Source: Tetragenococcus koreensis
Lineage (GTDB): Bacteria; Bacillota; Bacilli; Lactobacillales; Enterococcaceae
Assembly (NCBI RefSeq): GCF_003795145.1
Contig: NZ_CP027786.1
Coordinates: 2,542,001 to 2,606,000 of the forward strand
Length of the DNA: 64,000 nt
Direction of reading: 5' to 3'
This document shows, piece after piece, positions 55,592 through 64,000 of this stretch. Each line of letters opens with the position of its first letter. Within the stretch, counting starts at the first letter, position 1. Both the position numbers and the translations under genes were made by a program. The notes beneath the pieces are model-generated. The model saw only the letters and a list, made by a program, of their open reading frames with translations, did not search any database and had not been told where the DNA came from.

Positions 55592-55887
55592 GAGGTGAGA
55601 TGAATGGAAAAAGTTTGCCAAGTGACTATCGTACATAAAGAAAAAGTAAATGTAATAAAAAAAAATTGGATCAAAAAGATTTTTCAAACTTACTTGTGTT
55701 AGGGAAATGTTTCAGCGATTCTTCTAGAATTAAAATTTTTTATGCTTTAGAAACCTATAAGGAAATGTGTGTCTGTGATTTAGCAGAAATACTTAATGCT
55801 AGTGTCGCTACAACGTCACACCATTTACGTTTTTTAAAAAAACATGGAATGGCAAAATCACGTCAAGATGGAAAAGTAGTTTATTAC

Positions 55888-57244
55888 TCAAGTTTCGCAC
55901 ACCAAATCTGGGAGATAAGCCTTGATATAACGGGGCAGAGTATCCACCCAGTGTTGGAGTTGACTTGTAATAAAATCTTGTAATTGGCTTCCTGATTCTT
56001 CGCTTACCGCTTGAATAATATGTACTAATTCGATAAGAGCAGCGGACCAATCGAGTTCTTTTATTTGATCGCCCAGTTCATAAAATAAGCCACCTAAGGT
56101 CCGCTCATCATTGGCACAGCGCTGCTGCCAGCTTAATAAAATATACCGTGTGAACACAATGGTGGTGTGACAAATTAAGGCTTGATAATGTCGCGTTTGT
56201 GTTTCTTTAGTCAGATGAAGCAATGATTTCGATGCCTTAAAAAATGTCTCGATGTCCCATCTCGCCGAGTATGTTTTGACCATTTCTTGGGAAGATAAAT
56301 CCAGATCATCGGTCATAATCGCCAACCAAGCACTTTTCTTATTGTGATTTTTGACAAAAACGATTTTCACGGGATTTTTGCCGGAGCTTGGTTTCACCAC
56401 AATCGAGGAAATAATCGCTTCTTGTGTATATTCTTTCGTAGATTTGGCATAAAGTTCTTCCAGCTTGTATAAACGTTGATGAAAAAGGTATTTGGTTTTT
56501 CCATTTTTCACCATCCCAATGGTGTGAATCCCATATCGTGTAATTGGTCTATCATTTTAGGGAAGTAAACCATTTATCCATCAACACATGGGTGGCGTAA
56601 ATCCCTTGGTTCAAGGCGCGTTGAACCATCTCAAGTGCCACTTCGGGCATTTTACGACTTGATTCGTTGAATCGTTTGGCTCCTACGGTTCGTTGATCTT
56701 TTTCTGCTATTGTTTGGTTCACTTTTTTCTTACCGGATAGTAACCCGAAATCAATCGGAATGAAAGAATAGCCATCGGAGAACCCTAAAGTAAGCATACG
56801 ATACCCTTTGTATCCTTGTTTGAGCGCATGATCCCAAAGACGAGCTAAGCCTGGTACCTCTTGGCTTCGATTACGATAAAACGTCGAATCATCCAAGATC
56901 AACGTCCGAATATGGGTTTTCGTATCCGTTAAAGAATGGAGCTTTTCGATGACAGACGCACTAAACCGAAGTAAAAACAGACGCCAGTTGTTATGGGGAT
57001 TGTTCATCCATCGATACACGGTATCTTTTTTCATGTATTGGTCGCTTTCCCGCCCACTGAGAACTTGGTTTAAGGATTTTCCTTTAAAGACGAGGCTAAA
57101 GAGAAAAGTGAATAGAATAGCCACCGAATACCCTTTTTGCTTTTCCATATGGGCTTGTTTTAAAAATTGCGTGACTTTTAATTCAGAAAAAAGGGCTTTT
57201 ATTTCATTCGGTAATTGATTTTTAATAGCTTTTAAGTGTACCAT
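55888..57244 (-). pseudogene. IS4-family transposase, frameshifted
   Basis: N-terminal part (57244 to 56552) contains LTFLFSLVFKGKSLNQ-like helices and LILDDSTFYRNRSQEVPGLARLWDH (first Asp), and VLMDKWFTS (second Asp region); C-terminal part (56514 to 55888) has YSARWDIETFFKASKSLLHL (Glu). Between them, at about 56517-56556, two one-base losses in CCC and GGG runs break the frame; adding one base to each yields SPKMIDQLHDMG then IHTIGMVKNG. Either decay or homopolymer error. Confidence 0.85.
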
Positions 57245-57404: not shown

Positions 57405-57508
57405 AGTTTATTACTCTTTAGCGAATGAAGACATCCTTTCCGCTATTCATGTTTTTTTAAAGTTATCAGAAAATCTATCTATGAAATCTTAGTTTGGAGG
57501 AAGTTATT

Positions 57509-58126
57509 TTGTTACAAAGTATTTTTTCAGCTATCGCTATTTATATTTCTACCAGCATTGATTATTTGTTTATCTTGCTAATTATCTTTTCTCAAAGTCA
57601 CACACAAAAAGGTATTCGTCACATTTTTTGGGGTCAATATCTTGGAACAGGCATTTTGGTAGCCGTAAGTTTGTTTGCTGCTTATGTGCTAAATTTTATT
57701 CCGCAAGATTGGATCATTGGATTTCTTGGATTAATTCCAATTTATTTAGGTATCCGTGTCGCTGTGATAGGCGAAGAGGAGGAAGAAGAAGAGGAAGTCG
57801 TTGAAAAGTTAGAATCTAGAGGAACCAGTCGGTTATTTTGGACTGTCACCTTAATAACCATTGCGTCAGGTGGCGATAATTTAGGGATTTATATTCCCTA
57901 CTTTACTTCGCTAGCTGTTTCCGAAATTGTTATTACTTTAATCGTATTTGCTATCTCTGTTGCGGTTCTTTGCTGTGTCAGTTATAAATTAGCCAAAATT
58001 TCCTTTGTTTCCGAAACGTTAGAAAAATATGAACGAATCATTGTTCCTATCGTGTTTATTGGTTTAGGAATTTATATATTGATCGAAAATGGTACGATTC
58101 AAACTGTATTGAGTTTATTTAATTAA
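57509..58126 (+). CDS. cadD: Cadmium resistance transporter CadD-like
   Basis: A 205-residue membrane protein, the length of Staphylococcus CadD. Five or six hydrophobic helices: SIFSAIAIYISTSIDYLFILLIIFSQ, HIFWGQYLGTGILVAVSLFAAYVLNFIP, WIIGFLGLIPIYLGIRVAV, then an acidic run (EEEEEEEVVEKLESRG), FWTVTLITIASGGDNLGIYIPYF and the C-terminal helices. The acidic insert may bind cation. It exports Cd(II), probably also Zn(II). TTG 57509 is used since GGAGG is 9 bases upstream. It follows the disrupted cadC, so repression may be lost. Confidence 0.9.
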   Translation: MLQSIFSAIAIYISTSIDYLFILLIIFSQSHTQKGIRHIFWGQYLGTGILVAVSLFAAYVLNFIPQDWIIGFLGLIPIYLGIRVAVIGEEEEEEEEVVEKLESRGTSRLFWTVTLITIASGGDNLGIYIPYFTSLAVSEIVITLIVFAISVAVLCCVSYKLAKISFVSETLEKYERIIVPIVFIGLGIYILIENGTIQTVLSLFN

Positions 58127-58483: not shown

Positions 58484-59680
58484 TTAGTTAACGACCACTT
58501 TGTTCTCTTGATAGGGCTCTCCTGTTTTTAAGATATGGAAAATGATGCGAACCAGTTTTTTTACTACATGCGTGATGGCGACCGTATAATGTTTGCCTTC
58601 TTCTAACTTTTTGTTCAAATACTTTTTCATTGGAGGCGCCCAAACCGTAGAGAGTCGTGCAGCTTCATGTAATGCCCAACGTAAGGAGGTGGAACCACGC
58701 TTCACCATATGACCATTCTCTTGTTGGTTTTCTCCTGAAGTACTGATTGAAGGTTCTGAACCAGCAAAAGCGAGTAATTGAGCGGGCGTTTGGAAATGAT
58801 CAATGGAACGGATCTCAGCTAAAATAATGGCCCCTAGCTTAACGCCAATGCCTGGAATGGTCAGTATAGGCGAATCAATGGTCTTCATAAGTTTTTCAAC
58901 TTCCTTCTCCGCGCTTTTTAGTAAGGTAGTGAAATACTCAATCAAATCAATGGTTTGGAGTAATTCAAATTCTAAAATAGCGGATGCTTGACCAATGGTC
59001 GAAGCTGCCAGTTGTTTAAAGGCAATGGCTTGTTCTTTCCCATATTTTCCCCGTGAAGATTGGGATAAAAGGTTGGTTAACCGGGTCAAATGCGCCTGAG
59101 CGATTTTCTGGGGAGAAGGAAAGACTTTGAGCATCTCATAAATGGCTTGGTTATGGTGGGCATTTTGCCCTTCCAGAGAAGGCGCTAATTCGGGAAAAAG
59201 AAGGTCTAACAAGCGGGTATAATTGGTCTTTTGTTTCGCACGCGCTTGTTGGAGGCGGCTCACATTTCGTGTGGCATACTTCAGCTCAAGTATACGCGTA
59301 TCGGTCTCAAACAAGGTTTTATCAACATCTTCTCGTAATTTACGAGCAATGGTCACGGCATCTTTTTTATCCGTCTTAGTTTTACGAAGGGTCTGTTTTT
59401 TGGCAAATTCTTTAATCAAAAACGGATTATAACTGAATGTAGAATAGCTATGGGTACGGAGAAAACGAATCAAATTATAGGAATAGTGTCCCGTATCTTC
59501 TAAGGCAATTTGAATCTCTTGTTGGGTGGTCACTCGGAGATTCTCAAAGGTCATTTGAAGATGGGTGAAACCCTCCCGGTTATTTTGAATTTTTAAGTGA
59601 CGGATAAACACTTCTCCTTGACTATCAATGACGGCTAAATCATGTTTGTGCTTAGCGACATCTATTCCTGCATATAACAT
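58484..59680 (-). CDS. IS110-family transposase (DEDD recombinase)
   Basis: Intact 398 residues. N-terminal RuvC-like domain: YAGIDVAKHKHDLAVID (first Asp), IQIALEDTGHYS (Glu), TDKKDAVTIARKL (Asp pair). C-terminal Transposase_20 domain: ILTIPGIGVKLGAIILAEI and LLAFAGSEPSISTSGENQ with the likely catalytic Ser. IS110 recombinases use a bridge RNA to choose target and donor. Confidence 0.93.
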   Translation of the reverse strand: MLYAGIDVAKHKHDLAVIDSQGEVFIRHLKIQNNREGFTHLQMTFENLRVTTQQEIQIALEDTGHYSYNLIRFLRTHSYSTFSYNPFLIKEFAKKQTLRKTKTDKKDAVTIARKLREDVDKTLFETDTRILELKYATRNVSRLQQARAKQKTNYTRLLDLLFPELAPSLEGQNAHHNQAIYEMLKVFPSPQKIAQAHLTRLTNLLSQSSRGKYGKEQAIAFKQLAASTIGQASAILEFELLQTIDLIEYFTTLLKSAEKEVEKLMKTIDSPILTIPGIGVKLGAIILAEIRSIDHFQTPAQLLAFAGSEPSISTSGENQQENGHMVKRGSTSLRWALHEAARLSTVWAPPMKKYLNKKLEEGKHYTVAITHVVKKLVRIIFHILKTGEPYQENKVVVN

Positions 59681-60334: not shown

Positions 60335-62185
60335 ATGGAACTTTCTAGGCGAAGTATTAAAATCATTTTAAAATTGTTGGAAAATGAATCGACCATAACG
60401 ACAAGAGAGTTGGGTGAGAAATTTAACGTTAGCGTTAGAACAATTAAGTATGATTTGGCGGATATCCGTGAATGGTTAAAAATAAAAAACATAAAATTAT
60501 ATAGTCAAAGAAATAAAGGCGTTTGGTTTGACTTAACCGATGTAGAAAAAATAACCCTTAAAAATGAGTTACTCGTAACTCAAAGTTTTGATGTTTATCC
60601 GGATCAAACGACCAGAGTTTCAAGAATCTTAATGCAGTTGTTGATGACAAACGATCTTCTTACTATTGATAAATTAGCAGACTTTTTATCGGTATCGAAA
60701 AATACGATAGTTACAGATTTAGAAAAAGTAGACTTACTTGCTGAAACTTTTCAAGTAAAGCTTAGCAGGAGCAGCGGATATGGACTATCCGTACAGGGAA
60801 AGGAAGAAGATCTACGTTACTTAATAGAACACTTACTTCAATCGAACTTTACAGAATATGATATTTATATCATTATGAACCAATTAGTTAATCCTAAAGA
60901 TGAAAGAACAAGTTCTATTAACTTAGGAAAAAACGACCTATTTCAATCGACGTATACTAAGATAATAAATGAGTTATCATTACTGCTTAACCCTACTTTG
61001 TTAGATCAGTTTAATTATACTGAGTTACTATCCATTTCATTACGAAGTGCCATATCTGTTTGTCGATTAAGTTTACATCAGCCTATTGGTTCATTAAAGC
61101 TTTTAAATGACCAAGAAAAACTAATTCAGAAGAAAAGTATACCGTTCTTAATTATGAAAAAAATCTTTGAACAATATGATCTACCTTTATTAGAAGAAGA
61201 GTATAAGTATATTGCAAGCAATTATACAAAAAAAGGCCCCGTCCAAGATTCACTTGATTTAACTAATCGATTGATTAAAGATGTCACGGAAGAAATTTCT
61301 ATTCCTTTCATTAAAGATCATCAATTATTGACTAATTTATTCGCACATTTATCCTTGCGGTTAAGTAAGAAGTATCAGTTTATTAACGAATATAATCCCT
61401 TTGTGGACGATATAAAGAAAAAATATCCTGATCTTTTTAATGCTGTCTTAGTAGCTTGTCGGAGAGAAATAGTTAATTTAGGAGTTCGAATAGACGAATC
61501 TTTTGTTGCCTATATAGCACTTCATTTTTTGGCCTCTCTTGAAAAACAAAAACAAGAAGTTATTCGTGTTGTATACATATGTTCTACTGGATTAGGAGTG
61601 ACTAATCTTATACAGCAGCGGATATATGAAGAAATTGGTAATGTAGAGATTATTGGATTCGCTTCAGTTTTGAACGCAGACGAAGTAATAAAAGAAAAAA
61701 AGCCAGATCTTGTGATTAGTATTTTCCCAATTGAAAGCGATACTTGTCCTGTGATTAAAGTCAATGCAATTCCCTCAAAAGATGACATTCAAAAAATTAA
61801 AAGTACCGTTGACTATTTATTAGCAAATAATGGTGGTATTTTTGAGAGTCATTTAAAACAAACCAGAGAAAAAAATGAGTTTAAAAACAGTGAAAAATTT
61901 AGTCAGGATTTGATTGTAAAAGGCTATATTATTTACGAAGGATTATTGACTATTTTTAAAGGAGTGCTAAAAGATGATTACTTAGATGCTTTTTTGTTGC
62001 ATGTATTCTTAATGGTGCATCGGATAACTTTTGATATCCAGTATGATCCAGTAGGAAACGTAGATAAAGATGTATTAATTAGTGATAAGCAACTTCTATT
62101 AAAAGTTGAACAGCTTTTTGCTGAAAACGATTTATCAGTTAATGATGCTGAACTAACCGCATTATTTCAATATATAGACATTTAG
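60335..62185 (+). CDS. PRD-containing BglG/MtlR-type activator with EIIB domain
   Basis: A 616-residue regulator: HTH_11 (ITTRELGEKFNVSVRTIKYDLADIREWL), a second Mga-type HTH (LTIDKLADFLSVSKNTIVTDLEKV), PRD1 and PRD2 (about 180-410), a gat-type EIIB-like domain (VVYICSTGLGVTNLIQQRI, Cys present) and a C-terminal region (GYIIYEGLLTIFKGVL...LHVFLMVHRITF) resembling a further PRD and not an EIIA. It is the first gene of the operon that continues with the PRD protein, SFCGS, DUF4312 and DUF4311 genes and presumably activates it. AAGGAG precedes ATG 60335. Confidence 0.85.
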   Translation: MELSRRSIKIILKLLENESTITTRELGEKFNVSVRTIKYDLADIREWLKIKNIKLYSQRNKGVWFDLTDVEKITLKNELLVTQSFDVYPDQTTRVSRILMQLLMTNDLLTIDKLADFLSVSKNTIVTDLEKVDLLAETFQVKLSRSSGYGLSVQGKEEDLRYLIEHLLQSNFTEYDIYIIMNQLVNPKDERTSSINLGKNDLFQSTYTKIINELSLLLNPTLLDQFNYTELLSISLRSAISVCRLSLHQPIGSLKLLNDQEKLIQKKSIPFLIMKKIFEQYDLPLLEEEYKYIASNYTKKGPVQDSLDLTNRLIKDVTEEISIPFIKDHQLLTNLFAHLSLRLSKKYQFINEYNPFVDDIKKKYPDLFNAVLVACRREIVNLGVRIDESFVAYIALHFLASLEKQKQEVIRVVYICSTGLGVTNLIQQRIYEEIGNVEIIGFASVLNADEVIKEKKPDLVISIFPIESDTCPVIKVNAIPSKDDIQKIKSTVDYLLANNGGIFESHLKQTREKNEFKNSEKFSQDLIVKGYIIYEGLLTIFKGVLKDDYLDAFLLHVFLMVHRITFDIQYDPVGNVDKDVLISDKQLLLKVEQLFAENDLSVNDAELTALFQYIDI

Positions 62186-62203
62186 TTAAATGAGGAGGAA
62201 AAA

Positions 62204-62539
62204 ATGGAAATAACTGAAGAAGCAAAGGAAATAATTGAGAATAGTCTTTATCAGAATGAATTAAGAAAAATAATAGAATATACGGATGATCAGCTAGTTA
62301 GTAATGATATAAGTCTTAGTGGAATTCAGTGGACTGTCCTTATTAATCACTTAAAAGAAATGATTGATAGGAAAAAAGAGGGGGCGTCTATACCTGAAGT
62401 TGATTCAGCAATGTTTTCTGAAGTTTCATCAGATTCATTATTAATTGCTGATAATATAGTTAAAAATATAGGAAATTTAAGCGAAGATGAAAAATATATT
62501 TTATCAATTCACTTTGAAGCAGCAAAAGAAAATAATTAA
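62204..62539 (+). CDS. Single PRD-domain protein (EF_0829-like)
   Basis: A 111-residue helical protein. ISLSGIQWTVLINHLKEMIDRKKEGASIPEV and LSEDEKYILSIHFEAAKENN match a stand-alone PRD fold, with His in NHL and IHF at the usual phospho-histidine places. I recall a TIGRFAM family for it in the E. faecalis EF_0829 locus. It probably relays PTS phosphorylation to the operon. Function unknown. Confidence 0.75.
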   Translation: MEITEEAKEIIENSLYQNELRKIIEYTDDQLVSNDISLSGIQWTVLINHLKEMIDRKKEGASIPEVDSAMFSEVSSDSLLIADNIVKNIGNLSEDEKYILSIHFEAAKENN

Positions 62540-62558
62540 TAAATTGGAGGAAAAAATT

Positions 62559-62918
62559 ATGGTAAAAGTAGTTATTGCAGATCGGATGGGGAAAGGACAA
62601 AATGTAGCAAAAGGTGTAGAAGCTGCAGAAGGAACGGCAGTAGTAGTCCCTGGCATGGGAGCTGATATGAGATTAGGCGATGTGATGCAAGAAGAAAACG
62701 CAGATTTAGGAATATCCTTTTGTGGAAGTGGAGGCGCAGGTGCACTAACTGCAGCAAATAAATACGGTTATCCAGAACGGCATGGAATGCGCTCGATTGA
62801 TGAAGGAGTTACCGCTATTAATGATGGAAAAATCGTTTTAGGCTTTGGCTTTTTGGACCAAGAAGAACTAGGCAAAAGAATAGTTGAAACTTATCTAAAG
62901 AAATACGGTAGTCAATAG
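62559..62918 (+). CDS. Glycine-rich SFCGS-family protein (EF_0830-like)
   Basis: A 119-residue protein with GKGQNVAKGVEAAEGTAVVVPGMGADMRLGDVM and the name-giving motif GISFCGSGGAGALTAANKYGYPERHGMRS. The Cys in a glycine-rich loop resembles a PTS EIIB phosphocysteine loop, which would make this an unusual EIIB-like subunit; that is inference. GGAGG precedes ATG 62559. Tightly spaced in the operon. Confidence 0.8.
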   Translation: MVKVVIADRMGKGQNVAKGVEAAEGTAVVVPGMGADMRLGDVMQEENADLGISFCGSGGAGALTAANKYGYPERHGMRSIDEGVTAINDGKIVLGFGFLDQEELGKRIVETYLKKYGSQ

Positions 62919-62941
62919 TTTTTTGGAAAGGAGATCATATA

Positions 62942-63301
62942 GTGAATGTTTTAGAAAAAGAAAAAAGTTCAGTTACTGTGACCGGTAGAGGAAAAAATAG
63001 AAAAGAGGTTTTTGCCGATGCTTTGAGCAGTGTGCAAAAACAAATTACTAAATATGCAGATAACGTACCTGTACGAATTGAACCAGTTACAATCACTATA
63101 CTCTCTGCAGAAGAAAAATCTTACATGGAACGATTCTTATTTTTCTTTTTTCCTAGGAAGAAAACAGAATATACATTAAAGTTGAAAATTGGTATAGAAA
63201 TATCAAGTATTGACGTAAACAAAGTGGACTTTAAAAAAATAGATGAAACAAAGCCAAAGTTGTTCAAAAAATCTATTTTGGCTAAAAGAATAAAAGAATA
63301 A
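62942..63301 (+). CDS. DUF4312-family protein (EF_0831-like)
   Basis: A 119-residue soluble protein: SVTVTGRGKNRKEVFADALSSVQKQI and a hydrophobic patch ERFLFFFFPRKKTEYTLKLKIGIEISSIDV. GTG 62942 is the start (AAAGGAG 9 bases upstream). Function unknown; always reported with the SFCGS and DUF4310/4311 proteins as far as I recall. Confidence 0.75.
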   Translation: MNVLEKEKSSVTVTGRGKNRKEVFADALSSVQKQITKYADNVPVRIEPVTITILSAEEKSYMERFLFFFFPRKKTEYTLKLKIGIEISSIDVNKVDFKKIDETKPKLFKKSILAKRIKE

Positions 63302-63313
63302 AGGAGAAAGAAA

Positions 63314-64000
63314 ATGGAGTTTGTTACGATACTAATAAAATCATTAATTATTGGTGGATTGTTGGGATTTTCTGCAGGTGTTGGGGCAGCTAGAATGTTC
63401 CATGCGCCAAATACACAAGCTCTGGGAGCATTTCGTACACTTGGAGAAATGAACGCTTGCCAGGGTGATGCAGCTTCTCACTTTTCATTTGGTTTAGGTT
63501 TTTTCTTTAACGCTTGGGCATCAGCGGTAGGAGCTGGTGCTTTTACACAAGATGTCACTCATCGGGTGGTTCCAAACTGGGCTGCTGCTGCTTTATTATA
63601 TAAAAATAAGGATGTAAGTCAGACAATCCAAGATCCCAAAAAAATGGGGATCGCTGGAACTATTATTGGAATGATCGTAGTTGCCTTTTTAAATAGTACT
63701 GCTGCTGCTATTCCTGAAGCATTACAAGTGACTGCAGTTGCGGTATTAGTCCCTGCGGCAACAATATTAATTGATACAGTTATGCCTATTATTTTCTGGC
63801 TAGCTGCAATTGATGCTGGTAGACGAACTGGTTTTTGGGGGACTTTATTTGGCGGATTCGCTCAGATGATTATGGGAAATGCTGTACCTGGAGTAGTTTT
63901 GGGCATATTGATAGGAAAAGGTGTCGATGACCAAGGCTGGTCAAGAATTACGAGAATCATCTTATTTGCCGCAATTTTACTATTTATTCTAAGTGGGTTC
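63314..64000 (+). CDS. DUF4311-family membrane protein (EF_0832-like), partial
   Basis: The frame is open from ATG 63314 to the window edge (229 codons). It is polytopic: LIKSLIIGGLLGFSAGVGAARMFHAP, SFGLGFFFNAWASAVGAGAFTQDVTHRVVPNWAAAALL, GIAGTIIGMIVVAFLNS, VAVLVPAATILIDTVMPIIFWLAAIDAG and GNAVPGVVLGILIGKG. Glycine-rich helices resemble a transport channel. Presumably a DUF4310 partner and catabolic genes follow outside the window. AAGGAG precedes the start. Confidence 0.8.
   Translation, partial: MEFVTILIKSLIIGGLLGFSAGVGAARMFHAPNTQALGAFRTLGEMNACQGDAASHFSFGLGFFFNAWASAVGAGAFTQDVTHRVVPNWAAAALLYKNKDVSQTIQDPKKMGIAGTIIGMIVVAFLNSTAAAIPEALQVTAVAVLVPAATILIDTVMPIIFWLAAIDAGRRTGFWGTLFGGFAQMIMGNAVPGVVLGILIGKGVDDQGWSRITRIILFAAILLFILSGF

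Follow-up and report, generated by a model that had tools for sequence, protein, structure and literature searches.

What is imported, and by what means, by an operon in which a lone PRD protein, an SFCGS protein, and members of the DUF4312, DUF4311, and DUF4310 families precede three catabolic genes? The operon begins at the right-hand end of the DNA analyzed herein, a stretch of 64,000 nucleotides (nt) from Tetragenococcus koreensis (contig NZ_CP027786.1, positions 2,542,001 to 2,606,000 of the forward strand; hereafter, the window), and continues beyond its edge. The operon is real, widely conserved, and functionally undescribed as far as the literature searches reached; a preliminary description, made from the sequence alone, had stated that the transporter has no described mechanism, and none was found in the literature searched, the coverage of which was partial, with few subscription journals. 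A transport function of the operon is likely, and the genetic evidence supports a transporter that is probably coupled to the phosphotransferase system (PTS) despite the fold predicted for SFCGS; phosphoryl transfer of the PTS type via the PRD and SFCGS is a plausible, as yet unproven, mechanism. The model favored herein, group translocation from phosphorylated HPr to the PRD, to a Cys of SFCGS, and finally to the substrate at DUF4311/DUF4310, is assigned a probability of roughly 0.45.

Briefly, the operon would enable the cell to import and degrade a 2-amino-2-deoxy-aldonic acid that is N-acylated or linked in another way through an amide/ester bond. DUF4311 and DUF4310 would constitute the membrane permease, with DUF4312 as a small cytosolic partner. 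EI and HPr would pass phosphate to the lone PRD (His49/His103) in the place of EIIA. From the PRD, the phosphate would move to Cys55 of SFCGS, the RpiB fold of which would have been co-opted for the role of EIIB, and from there to the substrate at the permease, such that the substrate would be phosphorylated on entry, as in the PTS. Subsequently, the amidohydrolase would free the amine, the DgaE-family lyase would deaminate the compound, and DgaF would split the resulting 2-keto-3-deoxy acid phosphate into pyruvate and glyceraldehyde-3-phosphate. Gene content, conservation, the predicted fold of SFCGS, gene fusions, and the HPr-EI protein of Bartonella were computed; we infer the substrate, the transport role of DUF4311/DUF4310, and each of the phosphoryl transfers.

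Gene Organization and Conservation

Families were assigned in accordance with the curated Pfam/NCBIfam cut-offs. The features of the operon within the window are as follows:

60335..62185, + strand: regulator of 616 residues with HTH_11, Mga-type HTH, and PRD domains
62204..62539, + strand: lone PRD protein of the EF_0829 type, 111 residues; PF00874/TIGR03582 above cut-off
62348..62350, + strand: codon of PRD His49, a His also present in Escherichia coli YhfY
62510..62512, + strand: codon of PRD His103, conserved in the alignment
62559..62918, + strand: SFCGS protein, 119 residues; PF14272/TIGR03577 above cut-off; predicted RpiB/LacAB-type fold
62721..62723, + strand: SFCGS Cys55 codon; the Cys is present in 83 of 83 sequences, directly after strand 3
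62942..63301, + strand: DUF4312 protein with a GTG start; PF14189/TIGR03578 above cut-off
63314..64000, + strand: DUF4311 polytopic membrane protein, first 229 of 259 residues; PF14188/TIGR03580; runs past the window end

The five genes share one strand and are separated by 18, 19, 23, and 12 nt, as the preliminary description had read them (12-23 bp), and four of the families score above their cut-offs. The start of SFCGS is the ATG at 62559, which is homologous to that of its relatives, and the listed open reading frame (ORF) opens at 62487. The DNA to the right of the window, for which the same description had suggested further genes, was read in a locus of the same genome (L002; window coordinate = L002 + 57999): DUF4310, an EF_0837-type amidohydrolase (TIGR03583), a DgaE-family lyase (TIGR01437), and DgaF (TIGR03581/NF047796) follow. 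Approximately 340 nt after DgaF are a 6-phosphogluconate-dehydrogenase-like gene and then a HAD phosphatase-like gene, the latter named by eye. Scans for promoters and terminators yielded signals no better than those of shuffled sequences.

A DUF4311 profile of nine proteins was searched against the genome collection and yielded at least 501 relatives. Because the best-scoring 80 loci were kept, the locus set is biased toward close relatives (66-82% identity over the best segment); contig ends truncate some of the loci. In the 80 loci, the core was found as PRD in 77, SFCGS and DUF4312 in 78 each, and DUF4311 and DUF4310 in all 80, accompanied by the amidohydrolase (75), DgaE (74), DgaF (66), and a PRD-type regulator (75). 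The gene arrangement is thus not a product of chance, and the conservation of the set EF_0829 to EF_0833, stated in the preliminary description, is borne out for these loci. SFCGS and DUF4312 form one ORF in L079; L052 is cut near the operon start, DUF4312 starting at locus base 81, and PRD, SFCGS, and DUF4312 were not found in L039 by this homologue test.

Predicted Structure of the SFCGS Protein

SFCGS had been proposed to be the EIIB of a divergent PTS. The structure model, computed from 44 aligned sequences headed by the window protein, has a mean predicted local distance difference test (pLDDT) score of 92.6 and a predicted template modeling score of 0.87. Its best structural match in Foldseek was 3s5p_B (Z 13.0, root-mean-square deviation 2.4, 113 residues); the first 22 matches were RpiB/LacAB-type entries, the next other entry had Z 8.2, and no EIIB chain was present among the matches listed. 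In profile-profile comparison by hhalign, SFCGS matched the RpiB/LacAB set (n = 30) with E 2.2e-5 (probability 76%, 71 columns) and did not match the set of PF02302 (n = 30), the EIIB class compared (E 0.21). Based on the model, the structural matches, and the profiles, an EIIB fold was set aside as the less likely one in favor of RpiB, and SFCGS is confidently predicted to have the RpiB/LacAB-type sugar-phosphate isomerase fold. The preliminary description had named a predicted fold unrelated to transport as an outcome that would refute its proposal; SFCGS, taken alone, is predicted to have such a fold.

The EIIB-like Cys loop that had been described in SFCGS fared better in part. Compared with each other, the RpiB and EIIB profiles match with E 0.00035 over 19 columns that by position cover the Cys loop, such that the Cys loops of the two folds can look alike and the loop resemblance is real, whereas the SFCGS profile has no EIIB match. 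The invariant Cys of SFCGS is located in a Gly-rich loop and is aligned with the Cys of RpiB, which is the catalytic residue of the latter. Furthermore, each of the five strands is immediately followed by invariant residues of SFCGS, which collect around the Cys loop and suggest a single ligand pocket. RpiB/LacAB isomerases have conserved active-site His residues, and the RpiB sequences compared retain a His in an EHNN stretch, whereas no column of the 83-sequence SFCGS alignment has an invariant His, the highest count being 57. SFCGS is read, on the model, as an RpiB fold probably adapted to a different use.

Alternatively, SFCGS would be a true isomerase or epimerase of the RpiB class that acts on an imported phosphorylated sugar acid, with the PRD controlling it by phosphorylation-dependent binding. 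The structural and profile matches to RpiB and the aligned Cys speak for this role; however, in addition to the absence of an invariant His, most of the RpiB chains listed exceed SFCGS, with its 119 residues, in length, the SFCGS gene is grouped with the permease genes and not with the enzymes, and an isomerase is superfluous to the DgaE/DgaF route. We consider an enzymatic role of this kind improbable.

The Lone PRD Protein and the Regulator

In the group translocation model, the lone PRD would be the phosphate donor of SFCGS, and both its histidines and its position are conserved. His49 is kept in all 82 sequences and His103 in 81 of them, the remaining sequence having a gap at this column. 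The PRD gene is located directly 5' of SFCGS in all 75 loci with both boundaries set, with a median gap of 19 nt and a largest gap of 269 nt. In G274, PRD and SFCGS are one ORF of 249 residues; of the 26 genomes searched in the class to which G274 belongs, two have SFCGS, and G274 alone has the fusion as judged by frame length.

The main rival explanation is a transporter that is regulated by the PTS and non-phosphorylating: DUF4311/DUF4310 would be an ion-coupled permease, the PRD an accessory of the regulator, SFCGS and DUF4312 gating or sensor subunits, and the kinase would be encoded elsewhere. A PRD-type regulator in 75 of the 80 loci is consistent with such an arrangement, and so is the fusion of PRD and regulator in L031. 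However, the PRD also adjoins SFCGS in Proteobacterial loci with the regulator at the other end of the locus (e.g., L014, L015, and L049), and three of the four fetched Companilactobacillus loci have a GntR-type gene beside the operon, with no PRD-type regulator found, the PRD gene being intact in two of these three (L045 and L046). GntR/UTRA domains were scanned in L043 only, and the GntR-type proteins of L045 and L046 have an N-terminal start almost identical to that of L043. The PRD-SFCGS fusion likewise argues against a PRD that belongs to the regulator. In L043 (8919-9107, + strand), the lone PRD gene is broken by a stop codon and is intact in two relatives.

No EIIA domain was found in the window regulator, the window core proteins, or the regulator of L031. 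After its PRD, the window regulator has a stretch, YICSTGLGVT, that by eye resembles the EIIB-Gat loop, and the PRD profile compared with the C-terminal part of the regulator yielded E 0.057.

Link to the Phosphotransferase System

The strongest piece of the PTS link has been obtained from a plasmid of Bartonella sp. HY761. PRD, SFCGS, DUF4312, DUF4311, DUF4310, amidohydrolase, DgaE, and DgaF are arranged in one cassette, which is followed by a PRD/EIIA_2 regulator and an HPr-EI fusion of 671 residues (PTS-HPr at 9-86 plus three EI domains, Pfam). This arrangement, too, argues against the non-phosphorylating rival, which we regard on the whole as less likely than group translocation. Furthermore, the cassette of G159 has HPr and EI genes downstream on its own strand, approximately 250 nt past a HAD-like gene, and in L026 genes of both kinds directly precede the regulator, approximately 190 nt away; both pairs could be housekeeping copies. 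Sorbitol-type EII genes are located downstream of the operon in a single case (L062), and one EIIA_1 match, from 25 of 75 families listed and with its ORF of origin untraced, was found among 59 unassigned cassette-side ORFs.

EI is present in all seven positive Bacillota genomes, which represent six families, vs. 73 of 199 sampled Bacillota, a sample that includes three of the positive genomes; the chance of EI in all six families is approximately 0.367^6 = 0.0024 if the families are independent. HPr and EI were found together in 19 of the 19 positive genomes tested, of which the 12 Proteobacterial ones say little because nitrogen-type EI is common in Proteobacteria. The divergent PTS suggested in the preliminary description is thus retained in part: the HPr-EI of Bartonella, the PRD histidines, the PRD-SFCGS fusion, and EI in the positive genomes speak for it, and the identity of SFCGS as an EIIB is not supported.

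On the Bartonella plasmid (L014, 121-7085 and 18137 onward), replication/partition genes are present as an inverted duplication beside the operon, and type VI secretion genes are located on the other side of the operon.

Membrane Proteins and Points Against the Model

Segments resembling transmembrane helices by hydropathy number six in DUF4311 and seven in DUF4310. DUF4312 has no such segment and no conserved His or Cys, and its profile yielded E 0.057-0.74 against those of EIIB, RpiB, YhfU, PRD, and SFCGS. A match to AgaE, with E 0.022, was far under the cut-off.

Several results weigh against group translocation by these proteins. No EIIA, EIIB, or EIIC family scored above cut-off in any core protein, which is also consistent with the non-phosphorylating rival. 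The model of DUF4311, built for the L018 homologue since the DUF4311 of the window is cut by the window end, has a pLDDT of 79, and nothing above Z 4.8, its best structural match, was found among 208 aligned PDB chains; no EIIC or EIID was among the matches listed. Profile searches of PDB chains with DUF4311, DUF4310, and SFCGS yielded chance-level matches only. The isomerase fold of SFCGS counts against an EIIB analogue, as does the missing match to the EIIB profile. The PRD-SFCGS fusion has been found in one genome, G274, and the TAG within the DUF4311 of that genome implies that its operon may be decaying; the fusion of the PRD to the regulator in L031 favors a regulatory role for the PRD. 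The PRD protein YhfY of the E. coli yhf operon has the first PRD His without the second and scores 20.3 bits vs. the Pfam PRD cut-off of 23. Finally, HPr/EI homologues were found in the fetched flanks of one of the 80 genome-contig loci (L026), and the co-occurrence of EI would also be expected if the PTS only regulates the operon.

The interruption of DUF4311 by TAG, on the - strand, was seen in L131 and L008 (G274) and may reflect decay, an error, or recoding.

Catabolic Genes and Substrate

The catabolic genes bear on both the substrate and the source of its phosphate. DgaF passes its equivalog cut-off (394 vs. 300 bits), whereas the lyase fails that of DgaE (361 vs. 600 bits) and passes that of the TIGR01437 subfamily (571 vs. 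385 bits); because the lyase passes the subfamily cut-off alone, the substrate may differ from glucosaminate. The characterized DgaE is reported to deaminate D-glucosaminate-6-phosphate, the product of the DgaABCD PTS of Salmonella, and DgaF to split the result (PMC9529869, PMC4987338). The amidohydrolase suggests a precursor of the N-acyl or ester/lactone type. No test favored any one substrate, and N-acetyl-glucosaminate from chitin oxidation is a guess only.

A homologue of the sugar kinase of the Enterococcus faecalis cluster is present in 13 of the 80 loci, 12 of which have a MupG gene, and one further PfkB match was found among the 59 unassigned ORFs. These genes fit a non-phosphorylating transporter with a separate kinase; however, the homologue of that one kinase was not found in 67 of the 80 loci, in a search that did not exhaust other kinase families. 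In loci without the kinase homologue, phosphorylating uptake is the simplest source of the 6-phosphate, but a kinase of another family or one located elsewhere in the genome may also supply it.

L020, L023, and L031 have the core and the regulator without adjoining catabolic genes. Together with a membrane fold that structural matching did not recognize, this might suggest that the operon is no transporter for carbon use and that the membrane pair belongs to a sensory or cell-envelope complex. However, the amidohydrolase, DgaE, and DgaF accompany the core in 75, 74, and 66 of the 80 loci, and the genomes behind these three loci have DgaF elsewhere (that of L023 via G244, which has the same genes), and hence we consider a sensory or envelope function very unlikely.

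In Xenorhabdus (L071, L084, L087, L091, and L096), KDGP_aldolase PF07071 was not matched in five of five genomes; these loci have the amidohydrolase and DgaE, and another aldolase may serve. In five Bacillota loci (L127-L131), two of which come from a single genus, the gene directly 3' of DgaF encodes a HAD hydrolase, by eye of the Cof type, which hints at an additional phosphatase step.

Distribution, Variants, and Neighboring Genes

The 80 kept loci span Bacillota and Proteobacteria. In evenly drawn samples, DUF4311 scored above cut-off in seven of 398 Bacillota genomes; the corresponding count was 12 of 398 for the phylum to which G398, the source of a Chromobacterium locus, belongs. DUF4311 was also found on six plasmid records, two of them of Bartonella, and no relative was confirmed on viral contigs. 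The sub-cut-off DUF4311 matches of L010-L012 were set aside, the ORFs of L010 and L012 being unrelated by eye; sub-cut-off matches were also found in L115, L116, and the E. coli control.

Between DUF4310 and the amidohydrolase, L017 (11626-14358) and also 10 of the 80 loci (L025, L029, L037, L048, L055, L057, L069, L085, L092, and L093) carry genes for a PTS EIIC, a small protein, and MupG; MupG alone was seen at this position in L083. In the Lactococcus loci L039, L040, and L047, EIIC/MupG-type genes are located upstream of the regulator.

In the window, an ORF of an IS110-type transposase (by eye) is located immediately upstream of the operon. Two adjacent ORFs farther upstream (55888-57244 and 58484-59680, both on the - strand) appear by eye to be one IS4-type transposase split in two. 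An ArsR-like regulator (55666-55983, + strand) and a CadD-like membrane protein (57494-58126, + strand), both named by eye, flank the broken transposase and are perhaps a metal-resistance pair separated by the insertion.

Comparison With Known Systems

Seven operon genes are members, above cut-offs, of the hypothetical-equivalog cluster EF_0829/0830/0831/0832/0833/0837/0839 of NCBIfam (TIGR03582, 03577, 03578, 03580, 03579, 03583, and 03581), and the families are therefore already catalogued. The cluster is catalogued mostly without function, and the model names omit the SFCGS fold, the fusions, and the PTS link. One paper tabulates EF0838 as selenium-transferase-like and potentially critical. 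Four points were not found in the literature searched: the RpiB fold of SFCGS, the fusion of PRD with SFCGS, a lone PRD retained where no PRD-type regulator was found, and the HPr-EI of the Bartonella cassette.

The dga operon of Salmonella resembles the present operon in its last two enzyme types, a PTS-responsive regulator, and the joint arrangement of transporter and enzymes (PMC9529869, PMC4987338). It differs in its mannose-family EIIABCD, in place of which PRD, SFCGS, DUF4312, DUF4311, and DUF4310 are found here; no mannose-family EIIABCD is present in the T. koreensis operon, to which the amidohydrolase is added. RpiB/LacAB isomerases share with SFCGS the predicted fold and the position of the Cys-Gly-rich loop, whereas SFCGS is shorter, has no conserved His, and is co-conserved with membrane proteins and a PRD.

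A stand-alone PRD is, to our knowledge, so far known only as a regulatory domain. If the group translocation model is true, a PRD can be a phosphate carrier and not just a switch, a further fold is added to those of EIIB, and several hypothetical families gain a testable function, with implications for the yhf operon of E. coli. More tentatively, and with more doubt than the model itself, the operon may represent a new class of PTS in which a PRD is the EIIA-like carrier, an RpiB-fold Cys protein the EIIB, and DUF4311/DUF4310 a new EIIC/EIID, with yhf as a second, diverged branch; sugar-isomerase and regulatory domains would then have entered group translocation either repeatedly or at an early stage.

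The yhf operon comprises a lone PRD gene (yhfY), the DUF2620 gene yhfU, a large membrane protein of the YhfT family, a Php hydrolase, and the pyridoxal-phosphate enzymes YhfS and YhfX, and has no DUF4312, DUF4311, or DUF4310 gene annotated. YhfT has no profile similarity to DUF4311 or DUF4310, and homology of these two to YhfT or to each other was set aside for lack of signal (hhalign E 0.13-0.43). The YhfU profile matches RpiB with E 4e-5 over 65 columns and SFCGS weakly, with E 0.013 over 101 columns, a probability of 3.4%, and the Cys aligned; seven other profile pairs run alongside yielded E 0.14-0.74. The yhf operon is likely a parallel system, its homology to the present operon being unproven.

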